From Nereocystis luetkeana (Eukaryota; Sar; Phaeophyceae; Laminariales; Laminariaceae), in NCBI GenBank assembly GCA_031213475.1, contig JARUPZ010000020.1, forward strand, positions 9,475,562 to 9,539,561: a stretch of DNA of 64,000 nt, written 5' to 3'. Positions 1-64,000 of this stretch are shown here, piece after piece. Below the pieces are notes generated by a model. The model did no database searches, was not told where the DNA came from, and saw nothing but the letters and a program-made list of their open reading frames with translations. Numbering within the stretch: the stretch's first letter is position 1; each line of letters starts with the position of its first letter. Made by a program: the position numbers and the translations under genes.

Positions 1-1231
1 AGCGATCCCAATAGAAAAGAGCCAGCTCGCGGGACACTTTTGAATGTCCAGAGCACGCGCCACGGAGCCCGGCCGGAACCGAAATTAGCGAGGTATTTAT
101 TTTCCACGCGTGTTCCCTGTGTGCTCCACAGCCGAGAAGGCGAGAAAAGCCCCGCGGCCGGAAGAGAAAAGGTTAGCAATGTGCCAAAAGAGTCAATTTC
201 TGACATATACCTGATACGAAGTATATATATATATGTTCATACCTCTAGCGCTGTTGTTGCTGTCTTCGCATTGAACCTTTCTTTCTCTACCCAACGGCAT
301 CGGTACACCCAGTCTCCGCCCTGATTATTCGTCCTACCGGTACTTTTTTTGTGGTCGCAGACTCTGTACGTATGACGGATCCGTTGATATTCGCATACGG
401 ATCAAGATACATTTGGCGACAACGCACCGGGTACGAAACACAACGATGATGTTACAGAATAGGGCCGGCAACAAGAGACAACTGGTGTTGATATTTATAT
501 GGATAAACCTTGATACCGTCTTGTACCACCAGGCTTGAACGCCCTCGAGCACAGGCTGCTATATACCTGGTTGGTTTTAGTGTAGCGGTCGACGCTGATC
601 ACGTTTTATTGGTACAAATTTCTTAATGTCCCTCGAAAAGCGGGCATTCTGTTCTTGTCATGAGTAGGCTGTTTCTTAATTCATCGGCTCTATACTGTAA
701 GCAAATGAGGTGACAACGTACCGGGTACGAATACACATCATAACAAGCTTGAACAAAAAAATGGCAACTAAGAAAGCATACGAAACCAAAGGGAAGCCTG
801 AAAACATGACACAAAATACCTTCATACGAATGACGCAAGAAGGCCGATACCAGGTACAATGCAAGAACGATTGCGTACTATTTATTGTGTCGGATATCGT
901 ATCCAGCGTTTCGATAATATCGAAGTATCGAACATCGATATATCATATATCGCAATATCGAACATCTAAATATCGAATTTTCGATATATTATATACCCTG
1001 TCGAACTTTCAATATATCGGAATATCGAACATCCATGTACCGCGCTTTCGAATACATCGTATCGGACGTGTTTTGCAGTCCATCCCCCTGGCACCCCCCG
1101 TCTTTTTTTTCGCAGATAGTGAACGAAAGCTTCCATGTATCAAATATCGGAGACCGTATCGTATACGATTAGTTTTACCGTGTTTTCGGTATTGTATCGG
1201 ACTCGGTTCTCGTTCAATATCCAGCACGACT

Positions 1232-1339
1232 TTCACGGGGGGCCATAGTAAATGGGGCCAAATATTGTTAGTAAAAATAGCGAAATATACAGGTTTTCGC
1301 GTATACCGTAGGTTCTATATAGTACGGTCCCCCGTAATA
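1232..1339 (+). mobile_element. Family A MITE, copy 1
   Basis: The ends are diverged (TTCACGGGGGGCC...CCCCCGTAATA). The interior keeps CAAATATTGTTAGTAAAAAT and CCGTAGGTTC. Confidence 0.8.
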
Positions 1340-1496
1340 CTGTAACTAATTGCACACACCTATTTCATACGTGCCGAAGAGAAAGATATAATAGTTACTG
1401 CGTGAAAAGAGGCAACACCAAAGCAGACGGAGAGGGGCACCAGTAGGGAGCAGCTCGCCGCCTTCCTCCTCCGAAACATGATGGAATTGACTAGGT

Positions 1497-1705
1497 TATA
1501 GTATGGGACTCGAGGAAATGAATACCAGGTAGGTTTTTAGGTATGGGATTCGGAGAAATGACAGGGTTTTTAGTACAGAAGTTGAAGAAAATGATAAGGT
1601 TTCACCGTAGAATCCGGGGAAATTATACTGTTTTAGTACAGGATTCGGGGATCTGGCCAGGTTTCAGTATAGGAGTCGGGGAAATGACAATGTTTTAGTA
1701 TAGAT
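1497..1705 (+). repeat. Minisatellite, ~45 bp unit
   Basis: Repeated TAGTATGGGACTCGAGGAAA-like units with GGTTTTTAGTA; imperfect, about five units. Confidence 0.7.
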
Positions 1706-2547
1706 GTAGGGTTAGGATTAGGGTAGGGGCATATAGCACCCAAATATTGTGAGGCTCCTCCCTTGACTATATATAGTACAGGAGCTCCATACCTCACACA
1801 AAACTTGCCCTGAGGAAATAATATCGCGTAGTCCGATGAGCCCACTACTAACGGTGTCACACAAATGGGATGCCGGGTAGTTTTTGAGCTTTCAGGAGCT
1901 CCGTAAATCAGATTTTTTTCGGCCCGAAAATTGCCACCAGGTTACGTACCTCCATCGTGGCACGTGTCCCTCTCCGTGTGGCTCCAGTATTATGAGACGA
2001 TGTCATATCTATTACTCTCTGGCCCACGCCCTACCCTACCCGAAGGAGCTTGAGGGACAGAGAAGGTACAAATACGATACAAACACGCGAAAGAAAATCA
2101 ATGCCAACATGGGCATAACGGGTGTACCGTTGTGACAAACATAGGTTGTTTGTTTGCAAACAATTTTTGCTGCAACCTATTTGGTTGCTTGCAAACCAAT
2201 TTACCAATTTTGCTTGCAACCTATTTTGGTTGTTGGGTTTCTTGCACATAAAGTCTGTTTCATATGCGATACGTATCAACTTCAACCCACCAAAACAATG
2301 AGGAACCTCATCGTGAAGGTTGTCGGGAGAAAGTGACCAAAACGACTCCTTTGGCCTAGTTACTCCTGGGTTGGGTCAAATCTGTGGGTCTTCGGCGTCG
2401 CGTGCTTTAGCCGACCAGCTTCTCGTGTCCGTCGGTTTTCAATTTTTTCACGAGGGTGTAATTCAACCCAATTGGATTGTCGCAGATACGCACACTGTAG
2501 TGGTTCGGACTTGGGACACCATTGTGACGGGAAAATCGATCAAGTTG

Positions 2548-2577
2548 GGGTGGGGGGGGGGGGGGGGGGGGGGGGGG
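2548..2577 (+). repeat. Poly-G tract, ~30 bp
   Basis: GTTGGGGT followed by an almost pure G run. Other long G/C runs: 11990, 25409, 27320, 28132, 31181, 33877, 36224, 53017, 56530 and 57804. Confidence 0.95.
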
Positions 2578-3792: not shown

Positions 3793-3908
3793 TATTACGG
3801 GGGGCCATAGTTAACAGGACCAAATGTTGTTAGTAAAAATGGTTGAATACATGGGTTTTTGTATAAACCATAGGTCCTACCTGGTATTAACTATGGTCCA
3901 CCGTAATA
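3793..3908 (+). mobile_element. Family A MITE, copy 2
   Basis: It runs from TATTACGGGGGGCCATAG to ACTATGGTCCACCGTAATA. It holds a CCTGG micro-insertion at 3878. Confidence 0.88.
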
Positions 3909-4287: not shown

Positions 4288-4431
4288 ATAGTCACTCGTT
4301 TCCCGAAGGTACCGATTATCCGACTTTTTGGGTTTCCATACTGCAGGGAAGGATTGTTGAATGCGGGGTACATTTTTTGTTTTGTGAGTAGGGGCCTCCC
4401 TGGCGTATATGTGCACAGATAGGAAATACCC

Positions 4432-4680
4432 TGGTACGTATCATCTACAGATCATCTGCAGACCATTCCCACCAAATGATGTAGATATTTCAAGGCAGAT
4501 AGATAGGTTCCTGATCTGTGTGGTCTACAGCTCGTGGTGCCGGGTGAAAACCGTATAGTCTGCAAGATCTGGCACATGTTGAACTGAGTTGGATCTGTAC
4601 TGTACAGATCTTACACAAAGTCTCACAACGACAGGCGATGAACCATAGTAGATGATCTATTTGCAGATAATGTAGGGATG
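4432..4680 (+). repeat. Family D repeat (GATCATACAGATC type)
   Basis: Multiple ATCTGTA/TACAGATC words, a CCCACCCGGCAACATGAGCT-like core in reverse, and AGATGATCTATTTGCAGATA. Other copies: 6310-6445, 7390-7640, 8620-8930, 13905-14440, 21008-21270, 23968-24200, 25805-26060 and 61738-61965. Confidence 0.75.
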
Positions 4681-4765: not shown

Positions 4766-5032
4766 TTCTTATGCAGGGGCACCTTCCCTGTCGGTGGTGG
4801 AGCAATCGAGCTGTCAAAAATCGGTCTAGGGGGTACGATGACTCACATCCTCAAGCCACTATTCTTAGTACTACAGCGAAGGAGAGTAATCAGGGCCAAC
4901 TATGCTTCGTGTAAAAATATTGGAATGTATACCTGGTAGTTTTTTGTGTAAATCATGGGTCCTGATTAACATGGTCCTCCGTAGTAGCGTTGATGGAGGG
5001 TCCGATTTTTCGTGCTGTATGGAGTTTTTTTT

Positions 5033-5858: not shown

Positions 5859-7221
5859 GTGAGAATTCGCCAGGATGAAACCGCCCATCCTGACCCTGGG
5901 TTTTCTTGGTAATGTGTCGGTACTATCGTAAAAAGGGGGCGGCGGGGGGGCGGGGGCAGCGAAAACAAGCATGCGACTTGCTCCGGTCCGGTATTGTAGG
6001 GATGTGAAGGTATGTTGTGTTCATACGGCTGCGCCCATACTTGGCATGGATACACCCCCCTCCCTCCTTGTATACGGCCATCGATGACATGGGTATACAC
6101 CCCCCCCCACACATTTCGCTTCCGAAGCTTCCGTTATGGTACAAGATCCATCCCAGGAAAGTAGATGATACGACCCCCACGTGGCAACACGAGCTATTGC
6201 GGGGGGCCATAGTAAATGGGACCAAATATTGCGAGTAAAAATAGGTAAATATATACCTGGTAGGTTCTTGTGTGTGCCGTAGGTCCTATTTTCTATGGTC
6301 CCCCGTAATAGATCATACGTACAAATCAGGAGAACTATGTTCCCTGAAATATCTTGATCATGAAGTGGGAATGATCTGCACGATCTGTATGATCTGTAGT
6401 ATCTGTAGATGGCCTGTCCGGTCTGTGCTCTAATTCCGAAAGAGGTTCGTTTTGGGTGCACGGCAGTGGGAGTACCGTGGGATGTAACGCATGAAATTGA
6501 AACGGCCCGGGGAATACGTAAAGGCAAAAGGCATGTCTAACCAGGGGGTGCTTCGGTACATACACATGCAACCATGCGATCCCGGTGGCTTCCGCAGGCT
6601 TGGCATAACTAGCCAGTCACTCGTGGCGAGCTGCTTCGAGGTGTGCAACTTTTTTTTGTTTCTCGTGCATCATCGTATAGCCGTTGATCGTTTGCCGTTA
6701 TTCGTTACGTAACCGTCGTTCGTGTGCTGCGACAGCCACGCGACGGGCAAGGATGTGGCGGCGGCTGTGCGAACGTACGATGACATGCTTGCCAACGGCT
6801 TAACGGCAGATGACAAGACGCTCTCCAACATGGTCATCGCGCACTCCTGGGAGAGCACAAAAGACATGACCAGGTCAGCCCTTGCCTCGCTGCACCTTGC
6901 TTTGCCTTGTCTTGCCTTGCTTTGCCTTACCTTGCCTGAATGAGGACAAGGTTTTTTTTGGAGTTCATGTGTTTTATGGTAGCTTTTTTATTACAGGGTT
7001 AGGGGTCATCGCGCACTCCTGGAGGAGCACGGTCGTCACACACTCCTTGAAGAGCACGAAGGACTTGACCAGGTCAACCGTTGCTTTGCCTTGCTGTGCC
7101 TTGCCGCGCCGCACCGCGCCGCGCCTTCCGTCGCCTCTCGCTGCCCTGCCTAAGAAAAAAGGGGTAGGGGGAGAGAGAGTTCGCAGGCGAGAGCGGAGGG
7201 GAGGGGAGAGGGGTCATCCGG

Positions 7222-7272
<51 letters not shown>

Positions 7273-10200
7273 GTGTCTGAGTTGCAGACAACCGTGATTG
7301 ACCTCATACCACTTGCTCATTCCCCACGCACGTTTTACTACCTGATATCTCGATAAATTGGCACCATTGTTAACGTTACACACATGTCGGACAGATAGAT
7401 CACGATCTGTATCTGTAGATAATGTAGATCATCAAGATGCTAGGCTACCGTTATGAGGTGTTGTGCATGATCTGCACCGTACAGGTCCAGCCCAGGAAAC
7501 CTGTCGTACAGTAGATCATGCAGGTTATTCGGCTCCCACGCGGCAACATGAGCTAGATCATACAAATCATACAGATCATACAGATCAGGAACCTATCTGC
7601 CCTGAAAGAACTAGATGATGAACTGTCAGAGTCGATCACCCGTACGAGGTGTGCAAGGCTTTTTTTGTTGTTTTCTCCTATTTGTTGCGCTATGTGGTGC
7701 GATGCGGTGGGGGGCAGGACGTTCGAGGAGCTTAGAGCAAAGGACCTGGAGCCGTCAAGGGCTTCTTACCACAGCATGATATCGGCACTGAGGAGGGACG
7801 AGAACTGGCAAGCTGTTCGCACCGTGAGTTTTTGGACTGCTGTGATTCCTGCGCCCCTACTTTTTTTTTTGCTTGGCGTTGTCTTCGCGACGGCGTCAGC
7901 ACACCCAGCGTTCGTCCTGATTCTTCATCCTAGAGAGACACCTGGTACAAGCTATGAAGCAGCAAGAAATGGAAATACATTGGTCGTTGAAGAAAAGATG
8001 TTTATATTTATATACATACCAGGTATCTGGTATATATACGCCGTTTGGGTGTTGAAGGTAGTGACCTAAACAATGGTTGGTATATTGGTAACTTTGGTGC
8101 TATCAACCATTGAACCGTCTAGGGGCAGCGGAAGCGCCCAGCAGTATGTACGGGTAGGAGGTGAGATCACGCTGCGGCCGTGCCGTACGACTCCTTGCAT
8201 TCAACCACTGTATCATCCCCTTGTTATCACGCCGTTAGTTAGTTACGGTCGACCATTTTTCCCGCTTAAGTCCTAAGAGGGATGAGACGATGTTGTGTAC
8301 CAGGTAGTTAAGAAGCCGTGCCTACGCTTTGGGACACAAGCTACTGGGAAATAGGTTGAAGATATAGTGTGGGATCAATTTTGCAGTAGCACTAGGGGGA
8401 GAAGGGAAGGTGTGGACGACACAATGCCCCGACAGTACCCTTCAGGTTGTACCAGTGGTACCGGTGCTTTATACCTTTTACTGTTAGCCCTGCTCGTGAA
8501 GTTGATCGTTTTGGGTAGACCTTTGCGCACATTTCATCATGCCACATTCTTATGGTCGTCAGTCGTCAGGCACCTTACGCTCAGGGCTATATCCTTGCAC
8601 GAGTGTTGCACACCTCGGATATATCAGACATATCAGACAGATCAGATTCTCACTCGATGATCTAGATGTTTCAGGGCAGACATAAAATATTAATCCCTGA
8701 TCTGTATGATATGTATGATCTGTATGATCTGTATGATCTAGCTCATGTTGCCGGGTGGGAACCGTATAAACTGCATGGTCTAGCACGTGTTACCTGAGTT
8801 GCATTTGTGTTACCCAGATATTGCGCAACGTATTACAACGGCAGGTGAGGATGTAAATGATGATCTATCTGTAGATGATCTATCTGTACATTATATATCT
8901 GTACATGGTCTATCTATCCGACGTGTGCGGAGTATCGCAAACCCATAGCATCTGCGATTGTTTTGAATTTCTCTGTCCCGATGTCTGTGACACAGGCGAT
9001 GACCCTCCGTAGCAGTTTCTATGCAGATGACAGGTTCAATACTTTGCGACGCCCACGTACAGTACCTGTAGTGGAAATGCGCAGCAGCAGTTCGATTGCT
9101 CGTAATGCCATCCAGGGTGCGTACGTATGTATACGGCGGGCCGTCATCCCCCGTTTCCCACCCTTGCCTGCTCTCACCCAACCCACCCCAAGCCCCCACC
9201 ACCCGATCCACCATCCTATCCATCAACCCATCCATCCACCCAACCCCTGCACCCTCCTCCAACAACCCCCAACAGACTAATGTGACGTGGAGATGACCAC
9301 GACAGACGAATGTGACATGGAGAGATTTGGCACACTAGATGTTAGCGAGAAAACGATCGCTATCCTGAGAGATAGATGGTGGTCACAGAAGGCGAAAGAA
9401 AAAGGGGATAAGATAAGCAACACGTTTTTTTGTGAATGCTGTAAATCGAAGAAAAAAAACGTACATGAGCGCCCGAGTGTTGGAGGTGTCTCTATTAGGA
9501 GTAGGAACGGTGCTCTGTCTCGAAAGGGATGCGCGATCAATGGCCAAATTATTAAGGCAAGCAACAAATGAGTACCCCCCCCCCCCCGCGCGCCTGTCTG
9601 CCTGGTCGATGAAAACCCGACGTGCGCCGTCCCGGAATTGTAGGGATGCGAGGGTCTATGGTCATAGGTCATACGACTACGGCCACCGTGCATGATATCG
9701 AGCACCCCCCACCCCACCCTCGTCCCCTCCTCCCGCCTCTCTCACATACGCCTGCCCAACTCCCGTGTGTTTCCTTGTGTGTGTGAAGTTGATGCACGCG
9801 ATGATAGAGGAGGGGAGAGCACCGAACGACCCCGCGTTCGCCGTTGGGTTCATGACCGCAAGAAAGCTTGGAGACCCCGACTTTGCGAAGTTGCTGCTGG
9901 AGACGCGGGGCCGGGCGGGTTTGCCTTTGAGGCACGATTTCTTTGTCAACGTGGGTGCTTGGGTTATTCGATAGCAATGGTTGGGGTTCACTGTGTTCGA
10001 GACGAATACAATCCATCCTATCCTTAACCCCTTTTAGGACCCCAGTCCCGTTTTGGGGACAAACTACTTACAATTTGAGTGTTTCGTCCCCACTCATGAG
10101 AGTGCGGTGCTAAAAGGGTTAACCCTTTTAGGACCGCAGTCCCGTTTTGGGCACAAACTACTTATAATTTGAGTGTTTCGTCCCCAAAACGGGACTGGGG

Positions 10201-13200
10201 TCCTAAAAGGGTTAACTTAACCTCAAGCAAGCCGATCAGGGGGTTTGCGAATACTTTGGTTTTGGGTTGGGTTTCTCGTAGTCTGTTCCTTACTGGTGTG
10301 CAATATCCGCTCTGTCTCTGTATGTATTGATCGTTTGTACGCTAATATTGAAACAAAAAAGGTGCTTACGTTTACGGTGCACCCCCCCCCGGTGGCTTGG
10401 TAGGTGGTCCGCGTGCCTGCTAGGATCAATTTCGCGGACTCGAGCCTCACCCGAGTGCATGCTCGTGAGGACTTTTTCTTGTATAACAACTGATTAGCGG
10501 AAAGCGCGAGCGTGAGTAAACAACACTCGATGAAAATCGACGAGCAGTGGGAATGCTGAACCCTATGCGCGATAAAAATGAAGACACGCACGGGCGGGGA
10601 GAAGGGGCGAGACCTGTGACCAGGGCTCGTCCAGTAGAAGATCGCTGAGGGGAAAACGTCCGACGGGTTAAGCTGGAAAGTAGAAGTGATGATAGAAAGA
10701 GTGGTAGCAACCCCAACCGACGAGAAGTTAATTGCTGCCGGAAAACAAGTGACCCAAGTGACGGTTTTTAACTTTTAAGTTGGATAACTTTGCGCGTTGG
10801 TTAGTAGCAAACGGAGCAGCTCCTGGTTGGCTACGTAACGCCTTCGGATTCGCCTGTTTAACCAATCAGCTCCTCGTGAATGTTTGCTTTCAAATATTTT
10901 TCTAATCGGGTCGTCGCGAACACCCTGTATAGTCAGACCCGATCAACCATTGGTCAGCGTTATTAGGGTGTTCGCGAAGAATTTGGTTGGAACCAATTTG
11001 TTTGGGTTTGTTGTGCTCTGTTTCCTATTCAAAAATGGACCCCAAACCCAGGAAGCTTCACAATCTTCCTAACGTGGCAAAAAGTGGCCAAAATGCTAGG
11101 GTTGGGGTATTACTCTTCAGGAAGGAAGGTTCTACGTATAGGTTGGGCTGATTTTTTTTAATCGGAAACAGAGCACAAGGATCCCAAACAAAGTGGCTCC
11201 AAACAAATTATTTGCAAACACCCTACAAGCGCTGTGTATTCCCTTTGTCTTGTACGCAGTGTACCTCAACCACTTCCTCGAGTAAGCGCTACCAGGTAAG
11301 GTAAGCTCTACTGTTACTTTGCACCCTTTTGGACCCCTGTTGGTAACGACCAAAACAATGGTTGATAACTTTTGGTGTTACCAACCATTCAACCATCTGT
11401 TTAGGATCATGTCGTGCCCGTGTCGTGCGATTCCCTGCGTTGTATTTGTATTCCCCCCCCCCTATTATATATAGGTTGGGCTGGCCTCGGTTGACAACGA
11501 TACTGTAAAACATGCCGCTCACTACGTGAGCTACACGACCCGGGCACCGTTTTTTTCTTCTTTTTTTTGACGGTCGGTTGCAGCTGGTTGTCGAGTTAGG
11601 TCGTTTGTGCGAGGTAAAGAGCCTTCGCTCCGCACGAGGTAATTTATCGTATCACGTAGTGTTCATGGTAAGGCACCCAAGAGGCAGTTACATAATACTC
11701 CCATTGCTGTCTCTGGAAGTGGCTGCACCGGAAATTTAATTAATTCATTGAAGCTGTCATCCATATGCAAGTCCGCCTCACAAGCGGTTCTTGGTAGGAT
11801 GCAGCTCACCCTTCATGCGACTTGCCGGACACCTCACGGCGCTTCACGCTTGGTGCAAGCAATGTCTGCCTGGTCGGTGAAAGCCCGACATGCTCCGTCC
11901 CGGCATTGTAGGGGTGCGAGGGTCTATGGTCATACGACTACGGCCATGCATGATATCGAGTACCTGGTACATGTTTCCTATCGAGTACCCCCCCCCCCCC
12001 CCCCCCCCAATCATGCGGTGCCCGTCGCTGTAATCAAGTTGTATCATCAAATGCTAGAGGGTCAGTCCGTTTATGACTGCACTCCCTTGTACAACACAAT
12101 TTAGGACTATTTACTCGGAATTAGAGTCAAATTTAGGTTTCTGTACACTGCAGTCCTAAAAGGTTAGCAGGCGGTCTGGGGTTGGGGTTGCACTTGTACA
12201 GCAGGCCCCTAACAGTTCTATTGCTGTAGTGGCAGGGCTGCTCGCCTGATATAACCGTTCCGGATGGTAACGGTCGCTGCTGTTGTTTTTTACCGTTGGC
12301 GTTGGCGGTTATAGTCGGTCCTTCTGGGTGCGCGTTGCTGATGGTACCCGTTGCCACCGGTGGCCGTTGTTGCTGTTGACCGTTGCCACCGGTGACCGTT
12401 AGCTGGTGACCGTTATTGCTGTTGACCGTCGCTGCTGGTAACCGTCAGCTGTTGACCGTTGCTGCGGGTAATTGCTGGTGGTTGTTGCTGCTGGTGCGGT
12501 GCTCTTTTACTCTGAAAAAGGTTCAACCCTTTTAGGATTGCAGTCCCGTTTTGGGGACAAACTACTTGTAATCAGAGTGGTTTGTCCCCAAAACGGGACT
12601 GCAGTACTAAAGGGGTTAAGAGGCGTGCTGCGGTAGGGGTTTTACTCTTTTAGCCCCCAACCGGTTTATTGCTGTAGTGACAGGGCTCGTCAACCGATAT
12701 GACCGTTGCTGGCGGTGACCGTTGCTGCTGTTTGTTTTTACCGTTGGCGTTGGCGGTTATGGCCGATCCTTCTGGGTGACCGTTGCTGATGGTAACCGTT
12801 GCGCCTGGTGACCCTTACTGCTGGTGACCGTGACTGCTCGTGACTGTTACTGCTCGTGACCGTTACTGCTCGTGACACCGTTACTGCTGATGACCGTTGC
12901 TGCTGGTGACCGTTGCTGCTGGTAGCCGTTGCTTCTGCCAATCGTTGCCGCTGGCAACCGTTGCTATTGGTATCCGTTGGTGCTGGCAACCTTTGCTGGC
13001 AACCGTTTATGTTGATAACCGTTGCTGATGGTAATAGTTGCAGCTGGTGACCGTTCCTACTGATGACCGCTGCTGTTGGTATCCGTTGCTAGTAGCCGTT
13101 GCTGCTGGTAGATGTTGCTGCTGATCTTCCCTCGGAACTATTGCTGTGTATATTTGTCGATAACCGTCGCTACGTACCCGTTCCTTCTGGTAGCTGTTGC

Positions 13201-16200: not shown

Positions 16201-19200
16201 CAACTCTACTCCCGAGGTTTCGGGAGCGAAAAGAAGAACTGACCTCGTTGCGATACAAATTCCGAGACATTTCGATATCATCGATGATTCCATTATTTGT
16301 GATAAATTTGAGCCCATCGATTGGATCGCCATTTTACGAAGAATATTTGGTCCTATTTACTATGTTCCCCTGGTAAAACACAAAAAATTGAACAGACACA
16401 GTTTGGACGACGACGGTTTCACACCGGCACTTTTCTATTTTTCAAAACCAATTAAATCAAGGGACATATTTGTGAAAATATAACTTCAATACTTCGTACA
16501 ATGCGGGTACTACTAATATGTTTCAGGTATCAACGCGCACAAATCTAAAACCTCCGTAAACAAACAACACAGGCGCGCTCGATGCCCATCGACGACAACC
16601 TCTACCTAGCGGTGATGGGACCGCGTTCGCTCCTGCGGGATAAAAGTGATGTTGAGCGGGTCCTGAAGTTCGTCGGGGAGCTGGAGAGGCGCAGCGGGGC
16701 TACCATGGCGCCGGCCCTGCAGCTGCAGCTGGCGGTTGTGTGTACTTCGGCGAAGATGTACGAGCGGGCGACGCCGCTCTTCGAAGTTGCGGTAAGGAGT
16801 GATATTTGCGGGGGGGGCGGGCGGGCCGCCGGGAGGGGGGCGTGCTCATGTTTTGCTTGCCTCAGCCATTTGACCATTGTCCACACCTCCCTTTCCAGAC
16901 GGAGCAACGTTCCCAAACCTAGTAGAGACACCTACAACAGTTTGGCGCTCATTCCCTGGTACGTTGTTTCCATGTATTTCATCGGGGTTTTTTGCCAATC
17001 GTATCCCCTCCCTGTTTCGCCGCCTGTGGCCACCATCCTAGAAGGGGGGGAGGCTCATGTCACGCATGCCCGTAGTCGTATGGCCATAGACACTCGCACC
17101 CCTACAACGTCGTGATGGAGTCGGTCGGGTTTTCAACGGGGGGGAGTGGGATTGGGAGGGGGGGGGGGGTACTCTGTTGAGTTTGGTCTGCCCCAAAAAA
17201 AAGGCGGCTGTATTGGTGGGCCCTTTTCCAATATGTACGGGAAGGCGTTGACTCTCTCCTCGAGCGGTAGTGAGGCTTGTTACTATGGCCGGGGGGAGGT
17301 CCCATTACAATCTGGGAGAAGGGATCTTTAAGTTGGTAGGCTGTTCAGGTACTTTGGTTCCTGTTGGGATCAAGGTACGGGCGGAGACCCAACCCAACCC
17401 CTGACTCTAGCCCTAACCCCGACCCCAAACCGCAACCAAAACGGGTCAAAACTGCCCATAAACGCGGCTGCGCCGCGTTTGCATCGAACCAGGAATTTCT
17501 CAGCTGCGGACGACGATTCCGAAGTGCAGACCGCGCTAGGCAATTTTCAAGTCAAAAACACCCCTAAAGATCCCTTCTCCCAGATTGCTAAACCTGCTTG
17601 CCGGGGGGGGAGTCGAGGTTTGGGTTTTTGCGGGGGGCACGGGGGGGGGGGGCTAGGAGGTGGAGGGGGCTACTATACCCCATCCTGTCTACGTAGGTCT
17701 CGGAAATAGGAGTGGGTGTCGAGCATTGTTGTTTTCGAGTACCGAACTGACAAACGCACAAACTGTCCTCCATTACGAGTATGTATTCATAACTAACAGA
17801 CAGGCAGACGCACAAACAAAACCTTTCCCTCCTCTGCCCTCCTTCGCCCTTTGGGCTGAAACCATCTCAGCAAAATGCGGAGGTGCGGATAAGCGGGTAC
17901 CGCAAGCAGGCCCTGGTCCAGAATCTCGTCGGGCTCGGGAGGCACGAGGCCGTCAGGGCCGCCTGGAGCGAGAGCACTTCCAAGGTGGGGCAAAACTTCC
18001 ATGGCGCTGTTTCGCACTCCGCCGCGGTTAATCCCCTTCAGACTCGAAACTCGATAATGACGTAAGACACGCGCTTACCGCATTTCAGGTCACTGTACTT
18101 GAACCAAGCCAACCCCTCTCGGACTACCCTTCTGGTGTGGGCACCGGCCGCTAGGAACTAGACTCATATTTCGGTTTCGGTATACAGCAGTGCGGTATCA
18201 ACAGGGTTGGTAATTTAGTTGCGTATCAGCAGAAACAAATCTACAGCAGTGGCTGAAAACTGAAAAAAGTAGTATTTCGTGCGGGTAATCGAGTAAGAAA
18301 GGACTGCAGTCCCGACTTGTGGACAAAATACTTGGAACTTGACGGGTTTGCCCCGCAAAACGGCGCTGCACTCCTAAAAAGCGGGTGCACGTGAAAAACA
18401 AGTCCGACACTCCACTGTAATACCCATTCCCGTGGCGCAGACAGGGAGGGGGAGGGGGGCGGGCGTACTTATTCGTTGCTTGCCTTATTAATAGTCATTT
18501 AACCATTGACCACGCATCGCTTTCGAGACGCAGCACCGTTCCTACCCCTAGTAAAAACACCTCCAAAAATTGGGCGCTCTTTACAGCGGGGGGGGGGGTG
18601 TACTCATTATCATGCATGGCTCTTTACTGGGGGCGGGGTATACTAAAACGAATTGAAAAAACGAAAACAAAAACCACCACGTACTGCTGTTTTATGTTTT
18701 GTTAACTTTGTGCAGAAATCCTACTCTTACTGTTTTTTTTTTTTGTTTTGACACTTCTAGGAGCATGGTGTCGTGTGCCCGCCCCTGTATGAGGAAGCAA
18801 ATATTCGTATACCAGGTATATACCAGGTACTGGTGAGGGTTGTTTATGTTCGTGTTTGTGTTTGTGTATGTGTCCTGTGTCCTGTATGTTTGGGTGCGTG
18901 CTTCTCGGTGCATGTGTCCTGTGTGTTTAACCTCCTGCGTTTTATTTTTTTGTGTTTTTACTGCTTCCTGCTGCTGTTGCTACTAATATTGCTGCTGCTG
19001 CTGCTTCGTGCTGCTACTGCTGCTGTTATTGCTGCTGCTGCTTTCGCTGCTGCTTCCTGCTGCTGCTGCTGCTGAAACTGATGTTGTAACTGCTTGCTGC
19101 CGTTACTGCTTCAATTACTGCTGCGGTTGCTGCTGCTGCTGCTGCTGCTGCTGCTTCTGCTGCTGCGGTTGCTTCTGCTGCTGCTGCTTGATGCTGCTAC

Positions 19201-27790: not shown

Positions 27791-28059
27791 CTCAAACAAA
27801 AAAAAGAAGATATGTACCTGGTAAATACTTGAGTAACGAAGCGATTTCCAGCATAGCAGCATCAGCGGCTTCCTGCAGTATCCTGTGCTGTGTATGCTGT
27901 ATGCTTAGCTGGGATGAGGGTGTTGGAGAAGGTACTCGATGGGTAGCGACCGAAGGAGAAGGTCTCTCTCCGTGTTTTGCTGAAGTTATTGTTTAGTACC
28001 AGTAGGTTGCTTACTACCATATATCTGGTATCTGGTATCGTTTAGCTGGTACTGCGCAA

Positions 28060-44900: not shown

Positions 44901-47900
44901 TCCACCGCTAAGCGGTTCCGTTTCTTCATCTTCGTCGTCACTCCGCTCGATCTGCGAGCCTTCGGAAGACGCGCAGTCACCCGAGTAGCCAGCGTATCCC
45001 CCCAAGATCATGCCTTCCGATTCCGAACTGTTGTTGTTGACTTCAACGCACCTCAGTCCCGGGGGGCATCTTGTCCTGGCCCGGCCAATCGCCGAGAGCA
45101 TCTGGCTTGCCGAGGACGCCCTTTTCCATACCTCCCCGAGATCTCGAAGGCCATGTTGTCACAACAGAATCCTGAAACTTTCTCAAGAGTCTACTTACTC
45201 ACTCTACTCCGCATGGGGTGCATGTGTGCAGTGTGTGCAGATCCAATACGCCCGAATCCGTTGGGTTCGTCGGGGATGTCGCGTCAGATACTGCACATAA
45301 AAACGAAACTCAACCCCGCCCTCCATACAAGGTTTTGTTTCTTTTTCTCTGCCAAAACTCGGCACAAAATAAAAAACAAATCACTTGACATGAAGCTCGT
45401 CGGCGAGATCTGTTCAAAACCGGCCTCAAAAAAAAAAAGGCTCGAAGTTCGTTCATATAAAACCAAACGAAACCACCGGGAAAATCAACTGATTTGGGAA
45501 TATCTCGCTAGCAAAAAAAAAAACAAAAAAACTGATCGTTGCAAAAGATCCGCCTGAAACATGGCTTTTAAACGGCAGTATATTCCATGGCACCATTTTT
45601 TTTCCAGCTCCTTTTTTACAAGTGTCTGCCACATCGCCTGCGGGGGGGGCAGGACAGTTTGTTTCTATTTTTTTTGTTATGTTCTTTCGATTTGTCTTAC
45701 TTTGTTCTTGTGTTTTCTTTGTTTTTTTTTTCGTTTCTCTATTTCATAAAATGTGTATGTCGTGCCTGTCGTATCCAGTATGATGACATGGCATTGCATT
45801 GCCCACCGGCTGTGCTTAGTGCTTAGCTTAGTGCATACCAGGTACGTGGCAACGTAGCATCTCTGCGGCGTAGCTATGTGACCAAATAACTTGTATCTCT
45901 ACTATTAATAGGATTGAAGAATCGGCACGGACGCTGGTTGTGCTGGACGTCGACGGGTAGAAAGAACGGGCACACACGTAGCAGTGACCCTCAACCGTTT
46001 CTGGAATACTTGGTAATCTCCCCTCTCCGTTCTACCCGTCGGCAGGAATTTTCGTTTTTCTCTCTCTCGAATGTACAGTGTATCTGATTGCTGGCGTGTG
46101 TATGCAGTGCCTCTCGTATCCAGTACGATGAAAGGGCATCGCACTGACTGTCTACTCTTCTTACTGCAATACAACACCAGGTATACCATCCTTGCTGCTG
46201 TGTCCACGGAGAGCTTGTACGTATCTCCGTACATGTACATAGGGTGAACAGTCAGCACGGACACTGCTTGGGTATGCTGGACTTCGACGAGTACAAGAAC
46301 GATTTAATCCTTCAAGGATAGCAGACCCGTCTACGGGATAAAATTATAATTTGAGTGGCTTGTCCACAAAACGGGACACCAGTACTAAAAGGGCTTAAGG
46401 GCGACTATGATCGGAGAGTTTTTTTCCAGAGTTTCCAGACTTTTCGCAGTTTTTTTTTTGCGCATTTTTTTTCATCGTCCATATATTTTCCTGATTTTGG
46501 TGCTTCACAAATAAGTCTAAATTCAACTCTCCCGATAGTTTGACCTCTGTTACATTTTTAAAAATATGACAGAACGCCTCCGTTTCTCAATAACAGATTT
46601 CCAACACTTGGAAAATTCTGGAAAGAAAACTCTCCGACAGCAGTACCTCGTACTGCTGTCTTTTTGTTGTCGAACCTTCGGTGGATTGATCAAAAATACA
46701 TAAACCCCTTTGGATGCAAGCTGATCGAAACAATGATTATTTTCAGTGTTATCAACAGCGTGAGCGGCCAGCATTGCCGGCAGAATCATGTTGCTCCTAT
46801 ATGCTGTGCGACTCCTTGCGTCGAAACTCGGACACCAATGGCAGTAGTATTATTTCCCAATGACGCAGTGAAGTGACCGCGTTGCTGTCATCGTAGGCGT
46901 CACTTTTTCCCTCTGACGTCGTGCCAGGGTCAAGGTACGTGTCGTGTGTCAATCCAAACCAGGGATGCGTGTTAGGCGTTACGCGTTCACTCGATCGCGT
47001 TGGCATCTTGACAAAAGGCGTTTGCAAAAAAAAACTACCTTCGCGATTTAATGCAACCTGAGTCTTGGCCAAAAAAAAGCCTCGATACATTGTGGAACTT
47101 CCTATTCATACGCACCAGGTGTTTGTTGTTATGGCTGCGTTCGCTGTATACAGGTTTTGCGTTGACGTTCGCACAATCGGCCAATTTGATGCGACGCCCG
47201 ATTTTTGCACTTTTCTTGGCCGCAACACGCATCCCTCATTTAAACCGTCGCTCCCGTCCTCCCGTTGTAACAGCAGAACCGGCTGCCGCTACATACAGTA
47301 CTACCCTCGGCGGAAATCTAAGGGAGCGTTTATACATAAATGTGAAGAGCCAGCGGTTCTTATATTTCCGCCAAGAGGGTACCACAGGTGCGTTGGCAAT
47401 GTCATACCTGGTAGCCCATACCTGATAGCACCCAGTGCCCGTGCTGACTCTTCTTCCTACCGGTATGATGTGTATTGATAGAACTCTGTACTCACGAAAC
47501 TAAGGCACATAGAATGCTACAGCTTGCTGTGTCATGCAGCATGTAGGGCGTGCTTGTGCAGCAGTGTAAGGATGAATGAAAGCAGACACTACCTGGTACC
47601 AGGGGCATAGTTGATGCAGTGAGCAGCAAAAGGAGAGTAGACAATGCAATGCCATGCCATCGACCATCGGACTGGATACGAAGAACAGCATACAACATGC
47701 CAGCAACACACAGATGCGTTGACATCGAGGAAGACATAAAACAGAAAGAAAACAAGGACAAAAAAACACAAGATATTCAAGCAAAAAAGGAACACATTCT
47801 TCTAGAAAGAAAATAATCTATACAGCAGTACGTACAGCATTATTAATACAACAACAGCAAGGAATAAGCAGAGGGCGGAAGGGAAAATCCTCGTGCTTGA

Positions 47901-48721: not shown

Positions 48722-49552
48722 GTTTTCTACTGGAGGTGCTGCTGCTTCTTTTGCTGCAGAGCTTCAGTAGGAGCCGTGATAGTCACCATTTTCGACAAGA
48801 CAGACACGGGAAAACGATACAACAGGTAGCAGCACCAGCAGCAGCAGCAGCAGTTTTAAGCAAAAGCAGTAGGGCGAAGCAACAGCAGTGCAGCGAAAAC
48901 GTGAAGCGAGGACAACAACAACATCAACGAAAAACAAGTACCAGGTACAATTACTACGTGCCCGGCAGGGACCTACTGTAGGCATGACGAACACACTGCT
49001 GGCTCCCTCAACGGTGGGCCATGTGGTTCCCGTGCGCAGAATCAACCCTCTTTTCTTTTTTTAAAATCGTCCATCAAGCCCCCCGATCCCACGTCCGCCT
49101 AAAAACCCTAGGGGATCAATCAGGCTGTGTGGAAGCAGGGTGCCACGCGGGAGCAGGGTGTGGGTTCACCAAGTAAACATCCCGAAAAAACAATAATGGA
49201 GCAATAAAAGGGTAGTTTCGACCAAGTGGTAAGTGATGCGTAACGCACGTGTTGTATGCTCCTCACGTCAAGATTGATCGGCGACGATGAGTGAGAGTGA
49301 GGAGGCGCGTGGAGTACGACACCGATGCTTTGGGGCAGCCGTGCGGAAAGCGAAATGTCCCGTGTGTCCCGAAATGTCCTGTGTGTCCCATGTCCCATCC
49401 CATGCCACTGGCGGTAACACAAGTTACAGGTACGTACGTACAGAAGTCGTAGTTTTCAGTTTTTACACCACAACGTGTCCGCCGCTGGAAAATTCCGGAT
49501 AGCTTCTGCTGGTCAAGACAGGACAGCAGCAGTACACACCTAACATTCTTCT

Positions 49553-50623: not shown

Positions 50624-50678
50624 GACCAAATAAAAGTACCAGGTACGTACGTATACGTCTTGTTTTATCAACCGTCTA

Positions 50679-51954: not shown

Positions 51955-52130
51955 TTACTGCATACCAGGGTACCTGGTAAGTGGCAACGTAGTATCTCTG
52001 GGGCGTAGCTTTGTGGCCACAGAACTTGTATCTCTTCTACGATTGAAGAATCGGCACCGACACTGGTTGTGCTGGATGTCGACGGGTAGAAAGAACGGTT
52101 CAATGTGAAGAACACACACACACATCCCAC
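51955..52130 (+). repeat. Repeat I, forward copy
   Basis: It carries CATACCAGGGTACCTGGTA (two adjacent insertions) but lacks the TTAA insertion at 52038. Confidence 0.82.
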
Positions 52131-52885: not shown

Positions 52886-53170
52886 GTGAACAGCCCGGCT
52901 TCTGGAAGATCCAGCCGGACACGTTGTAAATAAACAACGATGCAACCCAAGTCTTTCTTTTATCGCGTCAAGGTCTCTTCTGGCCTTCAGAACCGTATAC
53001 AAGTGCTTTATTGAGGGGGGGGGGGGGGGTCAGTCACGGGGTTGAAACCTCAGCCTCCTTCTGCCGGTTAAAATATACCTGGTACCTGGTATATATACCC
53101 TGCATGAAGCCTTCTAAAACCCGTAGTACGCGCGATCGAATTGTCACACACAGCCTTTGCAAAGATGAGC

Positions 53171-53625: not shown

Positions 53626-54092
53626 AAATACGTACGGGTTCCTGGGTCCTGTGGGCAACTAACCTTGTATATACCTGCTGAAGTTATGTACGATGATGAT
53701 CTTGAATGCGGATTTTTCTACGGTAGTAAGAGTAGGGCGTCGGAGGTGGTGGGTCGCGAGACTAAACGGGCGGGTGCGAGCTGCGCGGGTGCTGCTTTTG
53801 ACTTTATCGACGTTATGACGTGGGCTTCCGTTGCACCGACCGATGGCCCTTCAACGCGTGCACCTCCCGTACGTACGCTGTACCCTTCAGGTATGGCAGG
53901 TACGTACGTACATACATGGCACGTACGTAAATATATGGCACGTACGTACATACCTGGTAATTGATACCAGGGGTATCAGTAGTTGGTGCCTAATCTGCGA
54001 GCCATTATTTCAATCACGACCTGCCACGGCCATGATCATTGTGAAGTGGAGGTCAAGACACCAGCTGGAAGAGTGAGGCATCAGCCGCCAAC

Positions 54093-54188: not shown

Positions 54189-54664
54189 AAGCTTACGGAA
54201 GCTGTTCGTACGGTATGACAGGTACCTGGTAGAACCAAAGACGCCAGATAACAGGCCCCCTCCGACGAATTTCAAAGCCGATATTCTGGACGGCGGGGAG
54301 AACGAGCGTGGACGCCGAGCGGCGCGTTTTTAATGGGAAGTTCTCGACGAGATATTTATTTCGAAAATGCCGCTGTCGCCATTTTCATTGGCCGCGCCCT
54401 CCGCTACTTTTGGAGGAAATCGGCGCTGAAATTCGTTCAGGGGGTGGGTATTTGCTGTGTACTGGTACTCAGGTACTGCAGCTACTGCTGCTGTGTTAGG
54501 CGTTGCGTGTTTACCGGACAACAGCAGTCGTAACACACCAGCCGCCGAAAAAATCACTTGTTCTTACTTACTTACCCCTGGTATTGTACGAATACACTAC
54601 TCTTACGTCGTACCAGGTATACGCTCTGTCTGCTGCTCTGTGGCCGTACACAGCAGCAGTGGTA

Positions 54665-54866: not shown

Positions 54867-54883
54867 TACCTGGTACAGCAGTA
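54867..54883 (+). repeat. Composite micro-insertion TA-CCTGG-TA-CAGCAG-TA
   Basis: Two core classes sit side by side sharing a TA. Related composites are TA-CAGCAT-TA-TTAA-TA at 47833-47848, TA-TTAA-TA-CCAGG-TA at 39911-39925, and doubled CCAGG or CCTGG at 20271-20286 and 53076-53091. Confidence 0.85.
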
Positions 54884-57699
54884 GATCGCATCTGGCAGAG
54901 GATGGGACGGTGAGAGATGGGGGCTCGTCTGCTCTTATGATCGGAGGTTTGTTGCTGCTGGCTCTTTCAATACCGTCGGTTGATGTAAACTTTCGAATTG
55001 TGCGATCGGTAATTTATTAATGCAAGCTGCGAGATTACAGAGGTCTTGTCTTGCGCCCCCTGCATTCCTCTTGAAGGACATGCAATATACAATGGCCGGC
55101 GATTCCTCAGGCAGGGTCGTGCCAGCAAGGCGATGCCTAACCCTTCGTACGAGGGTAGACTACTCCTGTACGGTATTAATATCAGGTACCTGGTATACTG
55201 CCACTTGTATTAAGTGTACGAGTACGTATGTCTGGTATGATACGTGAGAGAAAGGACCTTACGAAGCCCACAGCTCCCCATGTCTGCATGTCTGATGATG
55301 GAGCCGATTGGCCGAACTACCGAGAATCTCGCATCGCTTGCAAGTGCACGACGAGAGCCCTACAGAAGCAGTACTGGTATGTTGATGAATGTTAAAAAGC
55401 ACCGCATCACGCCGCGAGATGGATTCCACTGCTGCTGCTGCCGGCTGTGTACCTGTGTGTGCTTGCTGTTCTACATGCATCGCAACATCGCAACACACAC
55501 GCATGTCTGCTAGTACTGTACGACCGATATGCCGACAAGGATAGCCCGCACCCCGAAAATCGGTGCAAACGAGGGCAAGAAGCGCCTAAGGCGGGTATAT
55601 ACTCTACAAGCCGTTGTGCTCGGCTATGCCGAGCAGCGATGTAAGGTGAGCCGGAAAAGGAAGAAGGCTAACATGGTGCGTACATCAGAGTAATCGCTCA
55701 TGTTGTCGAGATAAACAAGCGCGACAGAAAACACGAACGTGCAAGCGACGTCCGTAGCGGCAGAGCCGGAGCGTTAGAGTGTTTAAAACACAGATCAGAC
55801 TGCGTCCTCAGCAACTTCGGCCGCCTCACCTCGTGGAAGATCCTGGTGCCTCGTGGAGTGGAAGGATACGTCTGTTGCGCGAAGGTTCTTGGCTTCAAAA
55901 GCGGCAACGTCACGAGTGGAACCTGAAACATCTACGAACTCGCTTTCAGGAGAGTTTAACATGAGACCATTGTCTAACAACTAAGGGGATAGGGGGATAT
56001 ATAAGCTTTATACGTTGTTCCATGATTTTGCTTTGTTCTTGTGAAGTATGAACGCCCCTTTCAGATAGGCCACTCAAGGTGCTCAAACCTCCTGCTCTCC
56101 TCTGCGCTAGCTATCCGCGCTATCTCAACGAGTACGTAAGGGGTAGGGGCAGGAGGCCATGCTAAGGGCACGCTGGTACGCCGTGCAAAGTGCCCGGCGA
56201 GCCGCTGGGTCTCCTTGTCATGGAGGACGAGGGCGAGGAAGAGAAGCAAGTGCATTAGCGAAGCCGCTGGCTGACAGCAATTGCCAACTACCCATAACGC
56301 GATCGCGATTCCAAGGGAATCATGTTGTTGACCAGCAGAGGGCCCAGCAAACCTTGCAAGACAGGGCAAAGGATGTAGATGCGTCGGGGGCAAGGAATGA
56401 GAGTCGCGGTCGACAGGATCATGATGGCGAAGGGCGTTCCCTGGGGGTGAGTCCATACGCATATGCCTACAGCTCTAGCCCTGTCTGCTGAGTTATGGTC
56501 AATGGATTCAATGGTTAGTGGTTTGTGTGCCCCCCCCCCCCCCCCTTATCTACCTGGTACATTACATGCATGTCATCAGGTACGGTAAGTACCGGTGCGA
56601 CAGGTGAAAGGTACGCACGGCAGTACGAGTAGCCGTGATGTCCACTATAATGTTGGTGAGCGCTGGACAGGACGCGGTTAAGATTCCGGAACTGCTGTAC
56701 TGCACCGGCCCTGCTGTACTTGCTGTACCAAACGTCCTTCTTCGCAATCGGTAGGCATCAAAGTGGCTCTTGGAGATTCCCGACTGCTTGCTACAACGTA
56801 CCGTGCAGCAGCACTGCAGTTGACAAGAGGCTCTCGGGGTGGGGCGCCTCTGAATGGCAACACCACCTTGAAGCTATGGTCATGCAATACCTTTTGGTCA
56901 ATTTCTATCTTTCACGTCGGCCCAGACCCAACCCGACCCCAACTCTAGCCCTAATCCTAACCCTAACGCCAAACCCTAACGCCAACCCTTTGGGGAGTTC
57001 GAGGTCAGCAAGGGCGCAGCGTGAGCTTTACGGATTATCGCTGTCCCTAAATATACAAGAACTTTAACTTTTGTATTTGTTGTTATTGATAATACAAGAG
57101 TAATCCTCATCTTTGGAGACATAGTAGTGGTATACAACTCGTAAACCAAGTACGAATGAGTACCTTGTAATATCCTCTGTCAACGCCCCCTTGGGCGAGC
57201 GTTTTTTCTTCTTGATTTTTCAATAAAACGTTGTCCATGGGGAGAACAAAGAGATAGGGGGGGACTTCGTGAAACGAAGAAAAAAAATGCCCCGGAGAGA
57301 AAACGCGCCGGGGGTTTCTTCCAAAGGACGATGTTCTCGATACACCCAGCACAGACTCGTGCGTAGCTCGCCTGCCCCCCCCCCCGCCGCGTACCTCGCG
57401 CTCAATAACCAGCGATGTCGGGTCTCAACAGGATCTACAAGCAAGCACATAAGAAGCAGAGATCGGACAGCACTTGAGAATGCTTGCACCCTTCGTCCGG
57501 GGGTAGCCGTGTGACGAGGAGCAGGGGGGTTGTCCCTCTGACACCGAACGAAAGGGTCCAAAGACTAAGAAGACAACAAACAACAAGCAACAACAACGGA
57601 TGTGCATGGAGTTCCTCAGACATAGCCATGTTTTCCCCCCGGGGTGACGTCGTGTTTACGTGCTGTCCCCGAGGGGACGGCAGTTTATGTTGATACTAA

Positions 57700-58385: not shown

Positions 58386-58494
58386 TATTACGTTGGACCC
58401 TAGTTAACAGGACCTATGGTATACATAAAAACCTATATATTTAACCATTTTTACTAGCAATATTTGGTCCTGTTAACTATGGCCCCCCGTAATA
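58386..58494 (-). mobile_element. Family A MITE, copy 12
   Basis: It runs from TATTACGTTGGACCCTAG to CTATGGCCCCCCGTAATA and closely resembles copies 8 and 14. Confidence 0.87.
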
Positions 58495-61697: not shown

Positions 61698-61737
61698 GTG
61701 AGATATTATTTAGGGTTTTTACATACGCACCGATTAG

Positions 61738-61965
61738 ATCCCGGTCCACAGATCATCTGCAGGTCACCTAGACCTTAACCTGCCGTTATGATTCGTCGTG
61801 CAGGATCTGTATAGTGCAGATCCAACCCGGGAAACATGTCCTCAGGTCATGCATATTTTACGGCCTCCCCCCGGCAACATGAGTTAGTTCATACAGATCA
61901 TACAGATCAGGATTGTGTATGCCCTGGAATATCTGTGAATTAGATAGATAATTGGTCTATGTGGG
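61738..61965 (+). repeat. Family D copy after PPR gene 2 exon c'
   Basis: AACCTGCCGTTATGATTCGT, GTGCAGATCCAACCCGGGAA and CATACAGATCATACAGATCA. Confidence 0.75.
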
Positions 61966-62030
61966 GCTCGGTGATCCATACCGAGTGGGGGGCTGGAAGG
62001 GCGTGGTTGATGTCACGTTTCTAGGGCTGC

Positions 62031-62139
62031 TATTACGGGGGGTCATAGTTATCAGAACCTGTGGTACACATAAAAACCTATATGTTTAACCATTTTTACT
62101 AACAATATTTGGTCCTGTTAACTATGACCCCCCGTAATA
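62031..62139 (-). mobile_element. Family A MITE, copy 14
   Basis: It runs from TATTACGGGGGGTCATAG to CTATGACCCCCCGTAATA, shortly after PPR gene 2 exon c'. Confidence 0.88.
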
Positions 62140-64000
62140 GTTGGCTTACTGCTAATGACTTGGCGGCAAATTGTTGTATACCTGGTACCACATATAAACA
62201 AAAATACATGGACCGTTTGTTATTCGTATTATTAGTGTTTAAACAAACCGAATATTTCCGTCCAGGGTGACAGTTGTTACAGTACTTGGGCGGCGAAAGC
62301 AAGCCAACTGGCGCAGCCTTTCATCAATGAAAAACACGCGTCGAGCTTGAAGCGGCGGCAGTCAGAGGCAGTCAGAGAGATGCCAATACAAAAAACTCCG
62401 TAAAAATACCGCACGCAGCCAAAAGCAGATGTAGCCAACTGTAAATACCTATTAGTAACCAACTAAATAACTAGATGGTGACTGATAGTCAGTCAGCTCA
62501 CGGCCCTATTTAGAGATATTATCATTATTTGAGGCGTATGCTTGTCCACTCTCATCCAAAATACCTGGTATATGTTTATCCTGCTATTAAATAATAGATT
62601 AGGCTAGGCTACTCGTATGGTTTACGCTTTCAAGCTTTCTTAGATTTTTCCCCAGTTACGCCTCTTGCGCTCGACAAGAAGTCAAATTCTGCTATTTAAT
62701 CCAGGTCCTTTTTTTACGCAGCAAAATTCCAACTGAATATACCAGTCGGCAACTTACAGTCAACTGATCAACTTGCCGGCGACTTGCCGTCGGCCAACTC
62801 ACAGACGTACCATACCAAGCAAGCTGTCTTGCTCGGCTCGGCCTTGTCTCGTGAAGTAGATCGCGAAGGCTCAAAAGCTGGAAAGCGAGTAAACGCTGAC
62901 CGAGGCTACTGCGGTACGGTCGCCTCTGACATCATTCCTTTTTACCATTGCGCAGTACAGAAGCACACATTATCACTCTACTTCAAAGTATCACTGCCCA
63001 CCTCATGAGACCACAGTCGCAAAGGGATGGGGAGCACTTCGGGCCTCGCGTTTTGATAGCTACCTAAAACAAGGATAGATTTACTCTGATGCAATTGTTT
63101 TTTTTAGGATACTCCGCCAATCTTTTTTTCGTTTGATTTGATTTGAATCTGACTGGTCGAAAAGTGAATCACCACGCAGGCATTTTGACATTCGATTCGA
63201 CTAAAACGAAACAAAACGAGTGCGACAAGAAGTCTTTTGGGGCTTCTTTTGCTCTTCGTGCTATTCGAATTGGAGAGTTTGTCCAACTCGACCTGGCATG
63301 TTCCGGAAACCGAAGCAAGCCAGGTAATTTTGCGCCGTGTTGTCGACTGATTCCCAGGTGAGATCCACCATTCCCGAGAGAAAGGGCCACCGGAGTAGCC
63401 CCAGCTCGAGGTCCGACGGCCCCTAGCACAGAGTAGACCATCCGCGGCGCCTCAAAAAATTGCAAGGCCGTCGCAAACCCAGTTTTGCATCCCTCTTTGC
63501 CTCGCAAACCACGCGAGCACCGACCAGGTCACGACTTCGCTCAGAAGTTCGATCGCTGTATCCCCGTCGCTGTGCCTGCGTTGGGCTTGGGGGCTGCGCC
63601 AGCCATCCAAGGCGTCCCAAGAGCGATATAGCCTCTTCCGCGGTGCCGGCAGAAACAATCGGCCGCTGACCGCGGCGCCCCGGGGAGGACGCGGGCCGTC
63701 GCTGGCCTCGTTGGTTGCCCTCTGGTGTTTGTTGACCCTTGTGCGTTTTTTTATTTATTTTTATACGCTATTCCTCGATAGGACCCAAAGGCACGAAATT
63801 CCGGTCAATTCGAATTAAATTATTTTTTTCCTATTCGCTTATCGTTAAAAAGGTTTCTCGTTAAGACTGGCCCTAAGTCCCACGAGGGACACCACCCTTA
63901 TACTATACCACTGCAGACTGCTACAGCTGTACTGCTCCACAGAAAACATGTCTTGACTCTAACCTCAAGAAATGTGTTCGCCAGATAAGAGCGTAGTCGG
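62140..64000. other. Right end of the window, no recognised gene
   Basis: 63400-63720 is GC-rich with overlapping open frames on both strands and could contain an exon of an unrecognised gene. No PPR exon d counterpart is visible. Confidence 0.45.

Follow-up and report, generated by a model that had tools for sequence, protein, structure and literature searches.

The window is a 64-kb stretch of the genome of the brown alga Nereocystis luetkeana (C20:9475562-9539561 of an assembly of 465,085,209 bases in 1,987 contigs). It contains 48 exact copies of the nine-base word TACCWGGTA (W being A or T), the first of which starts at position 848 and the last of which ends at 62570, together with words of two related classes and a miniature inverted-repeat transposable element (MITE) of about 105 bp. 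TACCWGGTA is most probably (at a rough probability of 0.72) the excision scar of a TA-specific cut-and-paste DNA transposon whose tips would read CCAGG and whose overhang would measure about 5 nt. The letter W reflects orientation only, TACCAGGTA on one strand being TACCTGGTA on the other.

Abundance of the word in the window and in the genome

One hundred dinucleotide shuffles of the window gave a mean of 0.55 copies and a maximum of 3, and an order-2 Markov model predicts 0.82. The whole genome has 182,395 copies against 1,744 of the reversed control pattern, an approximately 105-fold excess with a mean density of one copy per 2.55 kb. The window, with 48 copies in 64 kb, has about 1.9 times this density. 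Outside it, 25 stretches of 10 kb were sampled, of which four adjoin the window and the others come from further large contigs, at round coordinates chosen arbitrarily; one stretch includes 2,500 masked bases. Copy numbers per 10 kb range in them from 0 to 9 (mean 4.1).

The original prediction had put at least 45 copies against about 0.5 expected, an excess of about 100-fold, in agreement with these counts. It had also recognised that a genome-wide count near expectation, or duplication of larger units carrying the motif, would tell against it. The counts, both against shuffles and genome-wide, are far above expectation. The motif is common to another repeat copy at 6 of the 128 sites having enough flanking sequence, so that duplication accounts for a minor part only, and 109 of the 128 sites are without an alignable copy in the 264 kb sampled, the copies being scattered and not tandem, as predicted. 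With both the shuffles and the Markov model below one copy for the window, the chance that composition or duplication of larger repeats produced the count is practically negligible. The excess is real, genome-wide and explained by neither.

Words differing from TACCWGGTA by one base are found at roughly 5 to 14 above background at every position, compared with 129 exact sites. These neighbour counts give a rough estimate of the mean divergence of the scars near 7%, and with decayed scars included their number may, again as a rough estimate, be near double the exact count.

Insertion at TA, target preference and junction variants

Nineteen of the 128 sites align to another repeat copy in the 264-kb sample. 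The alignment is gapless across a 2-nt counterpart of the motif at 16 of these, and the counterpart is TA at 15 of the 16, a site being counted when at least one aligned copy shows TA. Other aligned copies often have TG or CA, which decay of TA would give. Five of the 6 sites whose motif recurs in another copy have an empty counterpart too, and 2 of the 19 gave neither a shared motif nor an empty counterpart. A stricter rerun over 311.5 kb found a TA empty counterpart at 11 of 11 sites. The target is thus TA, duplicated upon insertion, as for Tc1/mariner elements. The aligned repeats support the prediction that a plain TA acquires CCWGG together with a second TA; they do not support the predicted size, the net gain being 7 bp and not 5.

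When 333 small gains were catalogued blind to the motif, the commonest was TATTAATA with 12 sites, and TACCWGGTA shared fifth place with 6, the other frequent gains being GCAGC (11), CTC (8), AGATCCGGGG (8), ACAT (6) and CGTAGTCGTA (6). TA-empty copies were also seen for TACTACTA, TATATA and similar words (listed for 40 of 80 candidate words). These were rejected as scars, since in tandem repeats of this kind a change in length mimics a TA gain.

Compared with every TA in the sample (14,461), the flanks of the 129 sites have W at -7 with a frequency of 0.85 versus 0.53 (on both sides, 0.74 versus 0.29), A at -6 with 0.50 versus 0.26, A at -3 with 0.43 versus 0.27 and a purine (R) at -1 with 0.79 versus 0.60. 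The target preference is symmetric, with a consensus of about W A N N A N R [TA] Y N T N N T W. Nine nested pairs, in which the second scar lies on a TA of the first, were found among 150 scars and 17,226 TAs, while our own arithmetic gives about 1 to 3 under random choice of TA. The scar itself fits the target preference (TACCAGG-TA reads as WANNANR-TA), which would explain the excess of nested pairs.

Two longer junctions occur in the 311.5 kb, TACCAGGGTA at 11 sites and TACCAGGGGTA at 5. Their T-centred counterparts, TACCTGGGTA and TACCTGGGGTA, number 0 and 0, so that the ratio of A to T is 16:0, and the reversed controls of the four words number 0, 0, 1 and 1. The 32 flanks of the longer junctions have W at -7 with a frequency of 0.75, A at -6 with 0.47, A at -3 with 0.38 and R at -1 with 0.81. 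The A-only junctions look as if one whole CCAGG end had been joined to a trimmed one. Slippage in the run of G is an unlikely source, because it would yield both A and T forms.

A near-perfect palindrome present in extreme copy number could also be a functional site, kept for binding, methylation or recombination around CCWGG and spread by selection or biased conversion. This is very unlikely, given that the TA gain is exact and mostly private to single repeat copies, that asymmetric longer forms exist, and that every position has an excess of one-mismatch neighbours, unlike the pattern left by constraint.

Related putative scar classes and the 105-bp MITE

Two further words gain at TA. The genome has 93,112 copies of TATTAATA (TTAA plus TA) and 10,689 of its reverse, and TA was found at 12 of 19 gapless sites in the 264 kb and at 10 of 15 in the stricter rerun; this TTAA class fits TA gain less well than the CCWGG class. 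TACWGTA (the CWG class) occurs 135 times against 49 for the reversed word in the 311.5 kb, with TA at 12 of 13 gapless sites and at 8 of 8 in the rerun. The TTAA class prefers T, A and C at -3, -2 and -1 (frequencies of.60,.51 and.51 in the TATTAATA flanks), and the CWG class C or G at -1. The difference in flank preference among the three classes would point to different transposases rather than to one repair habit.

The MITE, TA-TTACGGGGGACCATAG..CTATGGTCCCCCGTAA-TA, is abundant and about 105 bp long, with 14 complete copies in the sampled loci and the window. The flanks of TA-TTACGGGGG ends (24 ends, found with a loose end pattern in 264 kb) have T in 14, A in 16 and C in 16 at -3, -2 and -1. 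Four of the 14 complete copies can be aligned to MITE-free sequence. The empty site is a single TA for the copy at window position 35004 (compared with the MITE-free sequence at 43739-43805, 98.5% identical) and for that at L012:8192 (compared with its neighbours). At L002:7030 the empty copies are mostly TT, with one TA, and at L002:6727 the alignment is poor. The TTACGGGGG-tipped MITE thus has inverted ends, scar-like flanks and insertion at TA in two loci, with a third mixed, and is the likely parent of the TATTAATA scars. A TTA overhang at each MITE end would, upon pairing of its last two bases, give TAT-TA-ATA, which is the observed TATTAATA scar. The form with a one-base overlap, TATTAAATA, is a minor word (13 against 3 reversed in the 311.5 kb).

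Another word, TACGAGTA, occurs 53 times against once for its reverse in the 311.5 kb and is absent from the TA-empty words listed (40 of 80); no scar is claimed for it, and it presumably resembles the Minos footprint.

Table. Putative scars, junction variants and MITEs in the window. CCWGG rows are exact, strandless matches to TACCWGGTA; aligned-place counts come from alignment of repeat copies in 264 kb.
Feature	Position	Strand	Aligned places
CCWGG scar	848..856		
CCWGG scar	1523..1531		
CCWGG scar inside 105-bp-type MITE	3878..3886		TA 21, TG 13, CA 1
CCWGG scar	4930..4938		TA at 3
CCWGG scar	6254..6262		TA at 14; motif common to 2
CCWGG scar	8017..8025		
CCWGG scar	8298..8306		
CCWGG scar	11290..11298		
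CCWGG scar	11961..11969		TA at 12
CCWGG scar	18810..18818		
CCWGG scar	18821..18829		
CCWGG scar	19856..19864		
CCWGG scar, first of nested pair sharing one TA	20271..20279		
CCWGG scar, second of nested pair	20278..20286		
CCWGG scar	24271..24279		TA at 1
CCWGG scar	26632..26640		
CCWGG scar	27815..27823		
CCWGG scar	28340..28348		TA at 4
CCWGG scar	29637..29645		
CCWGG scar	32792..32800		
CCWGG scar	34712..34720		
CCWGG scar	37602..37610		TA at 9; motif common to 2
CCWGG scar	38105..38113		
CCWGG scar right behind TTAA scar (39274)	39280..39288		1 with TTAA scar only
CCWGG scar	39452..39460		
CCWGG scar	39677..39685		
CCWGG scar	39917..39925		
CCWGG scar	40010..40018		TA at 13; motif common to 3
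CCWGG scar	41913..41921		
CCWGG scar	42124..42132		
CCWGG scar	42607..42615		TA at 1; motif common to 1
CCWGG scar	44504..44512		
CCWGG scar	45836..45844		motif common to 1; 0 empty
CCWGG scar	47405..47413		
CCWGG scar	47590..47598		
CCWGG scar	48939..48947		
CCWGG scar	50637..50645		
CCWGG scar	51971..51979		TA at 3
CCWGG scar, nested pair	53076..53084		
CCWGG scar, nested pair	53083..53091		
CCWGG scar	53951..53959		
CCWGG scar	54223..54231		
CCWGG scar	54611..54619		
CCWGG scar	54867..54875		
CCWGG scar	55187..55195		
CCWGG scar	56551..56559		
CCWGG scar	62179..62187		
CCWGG scar	62562..62570		
Junction variant TACCAGGGTA	4427..4436	-	
Junction variant TACCAGGGTA	51963..51972	+	
Junction variant TACCAGGGGTA	53965..53975	+	
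Junction variant TACCAGGGGTA	54573..54583	-	
TTAA-class scar TATTAATA	18486..18493		TA at 9
TTAA-class scar TATTAATA	39274..39281		TA at 1
TTAA-class scar TATTAATA	42533..42540		TA at 7
CWG-class scar (TACAGTA)	33044..33050		TA at 2
CWG-class scar	39344..39350		TA at 7
105-bp-type MITE, 7 bp longer, holding the CCWGG scar at 3878	3793..3908		
105-bp MITE with flanking TAs (tip TTACGGGGG)	35004..35112		single-TA empty site at 43739-43805
105-bp MITE with flanking TAs	58386..58494		
105-bp MITE with flanking TAs	62031..62139		

Excision as the probable source and the search for a parent

The reading of TACCWGGTA as an excision scar builds on a gain of 7 bp at TA, a target preference that is symmetric, asymmetric junctions with A only, and a second scar class with its matching MITE. 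The transposon would insert at TA and duplicate it. Upon its excision, each side would keep a 3' overhang of about 5 nt derived from the tip, 5'-CCAGG-3'. These overhangs, self-complementary save for a central A-A mismatch, would anneal, and resolution of the mismatch either way would give TACC(A/T)GGTA. If one overhang stayed whole and the other was trimmed to one or two bases, the A-centred TACCAGGGTA and TACCAGGGGTA would result. The transposase would be Tc1/mariner/pogo-like and the parent would have nearly vanished. The palindromic core and the A-only variants would fit terminal transposon nucleotides lying between two TAs. The original prediction had named excision scars and templated repair as candidate sources. 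The former fit well (target symmetry, junction variants, TATTAATA and its MITE), and for the latter no evidence was found.

Several observations weigh against the excision reading. The look for an empty site covers only the 19 of 128 sites that have an alignable copy. The S-centred word TACCSGGTA (S being C or G) is also enriched (16 against 1 reversed in the 311.5 kb), although this is read here as decay of the scar centre. A 5-nt overhang is strictly needed only by TACCAGGGGTA, that is by 5 sites, as TACCAGGGTA is also possible from 4+2 nt, and a 5-nt core is longer than the 2-3 nt given for Tc1/mariner and ISY100 in a passage of PMC2170065. No intact TA-CCAGG..CCTGG-TA element with scar-like flanks was found among the inverted TA-bounded repeats of 264 kb and 341 kb. 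The intact element ending in CC..GG within TA, to which the original prediction had pointed, was likewise not found in the 341 kb or among the listed matches of one genome-wide pattern search, nor did the 182 larger insertions listed between repeat copies, inspected by eye, include a parent. Non-scar tips in the 341 kb amount to 80 for TACCAGG (a number including junction variants and loci fetched for carrying this word) and 68 for TACCTGG, with no sign of many intact tips. A search of the genome with the PF13358 profile gave 0 matches. PF03184 (DDE_1), presumably of the pogo/Tigger type, has 28 matches, several of them in long stop-free frames (for example C1:8320630-8321181), and CCAGG inverted ends were not seen in 4-kb pieces at three independent regions. 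These regions represent four of the 28 places (L037 to L040), of which L039 and L040 show 100% identity along 3,982 bp and are probably one region assembled twice. DDE_1 transposase genes are present, and in the three regions read they are not linked to the scars. In the LLxDGxSSH block of DDE_1, L038 has, by eye, a G where L037 has D.

In the 341 kb and among the listed matches of the genome pattern search, intact inverted ends starting with CCAGG next to TA were found only in the TGTGGATACCAGG family. This MITE family, with ends TGTGGATACCAGGYCC, was first taken as the parent on the strength of L003:3302-3603. Its inverted TA-bounded ends, part of long inverted repeats (also at L030:131-611 and L029:220-6234), read TA-CCAGG at the boundary. 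At L029 and L030 there is by eye no clear duplication outside an adjoining TGTGGA, which may belong to the ends or to the target. Were this family the scar parent, TGTGGATACCWGGTATCCACA would be the word expected at its empty sites. However, TGTGGA (with at most one mismatch) lies directly outside the TA in 11 of 13 ends, from which L031, a two-mismatch match with other flanks, was excluded, and in 0 of up to 332 CCWGG scar flanks. The family is also small: a genome search with TACCAGGCCCNTTNCCCTA, allowing at most two mismatches, gave 57+54 matches versus 23+20 for the control, its places being taken from the matches listed. Descent of the scars from it is highly improbable, and it was rejected as the parent. 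The 6-kb candidate at L029 has, by eye, no transposase-like frame.

The failure to find a parent, the presence of only one CCAGG-bounded inverted family, lacking scar-like flanks, and the large excess of scars over any candidate parent would all suit a micro-insertion, in which the 7-bp unit itself was inserted at TA, templated or untemplated, by a repair polymerase or by a transposase joining end fragments, with no element ever resident. This is unlikely, because asymmetric variants that are A-only (16:0) are what a whole and a trimmed transposon end would give, and because a MITE shares its target preference with the sister class TATTAATA. In its bolder form, CCWGG plus TA may be inserted by an enzyme without any resident element.

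Among known systems, the mariner element Mos1 has a tip CCAGGTG.. and a TA target, and its footprints keep 3 nt of one end. Both the start of the tip, CCAGG, and the target are like those proposed here; the 3-nt footprint differs, and PF13358 is without matches in this genome. A CAG footprint reads TACWGTA through its central mismatch. Sleeping Beauty leaves a CAG footprint, as stated in a passage of PMC8151067. Like the Sleeping Beauty/Tc1 footprint, the scars here have a TA target, a TA duplication and a footprint that would consist of terminal transposon bases, and the TACWGTA word of that type is itself enriched here with a TA gain. Unlike it, they have a core of 5 nt (CCWGG) and not 3, and about 10^5 copies in one genome. 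In Tc1/mariner elements the cut lies two to three nucleotides in from the 5' end, and joining of the ISY100 donor gives a palindromic TATATA junction (passages of PMC2170065); there, as proposed here, excision leaves terminal nucleotides. The scars are classed here as working like Tc1/mariner footprints and not as a proven member, the parent and transposase having been sought and not found. What is unusual is the length of the core and that a parent is nearly absent.

In Ectocarpus, also a brown alga, Mariner-Tc1 elements are among the most diverse groups of DNA transposons; they form 17 families with almost 12,000 copies, most of which are non-autonomous MITEs. The words footprint and excision are absent from the main text of that report (PMC12477816). 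For one reverse-transcriptase frame of the genome studied here, the entries naming an organism among 120 of 536 matches are Ectocarpus (43-53%) and one bacterial MAG (71%), which suggests a host like a brown alga. The element piggyBac, with a TTAA target and scarless excision (a passage of PMC8151067), is a cut-and-paste DNA transposon like the proposed parent. It was rejected as the origin, since the gain here is 7 bp at TA. None of the papers listed by searches of an open-licence collection describes the motif as a scar, and neither form of the 9-mer turned up in the papers listed by one of these searches.

If TACCWGGTA is an excision scar, ordinary repeat annotation overlooks one of the most frequent mobile-element traces of the genome, because each is only 7 bp long. 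The tip could then be predicted for a transposase cutting deeper into its ends than the known ones do. The scars would directly record past transposition, including insertion preference, tip sequence, repair outcomes and, via decay, time. Classes whose cores measure 3, 4 and 5 nt and whose flank preferences differ would document, in a brown algal lineage, how ends are naturally joined once a transposase has cut. It may be proposed, tentatively, that a transposon with an unusually long 5-nt overhang passed through this genome on a scale of 10^5 events and was lost by excision at nearly every site, leaving its history in scars and not in copies, the inverse of the usual picture in which footprints are fewer than elements.

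Other repeats were noted. A palindromic repeat of about 91-97 bp starting with TTAACCCTTTTAGAACCGCAGTCCCGTTTTGGGG and bounded by TTAA occurs in several copies (window positions 42379-42469, 52140-52230 and 10122-10212) and looks like a TTAA-target MITE. A tRNA-like interspersed repeat, GGTGGTTCAAGTGGTTAA..GGGTTCGAGCCC, at window positions 42670-42790 and other places, is by eye probably a short interspersed nuclear element. A dense array of inverted AGCTGCCTACAGACAGCT-like units lies at L010:3476-5160. At many places the window also has long homopolymers of C or G (190 nine-base runs, counted with overlaps), and CAG and CAA repeats are numerous.

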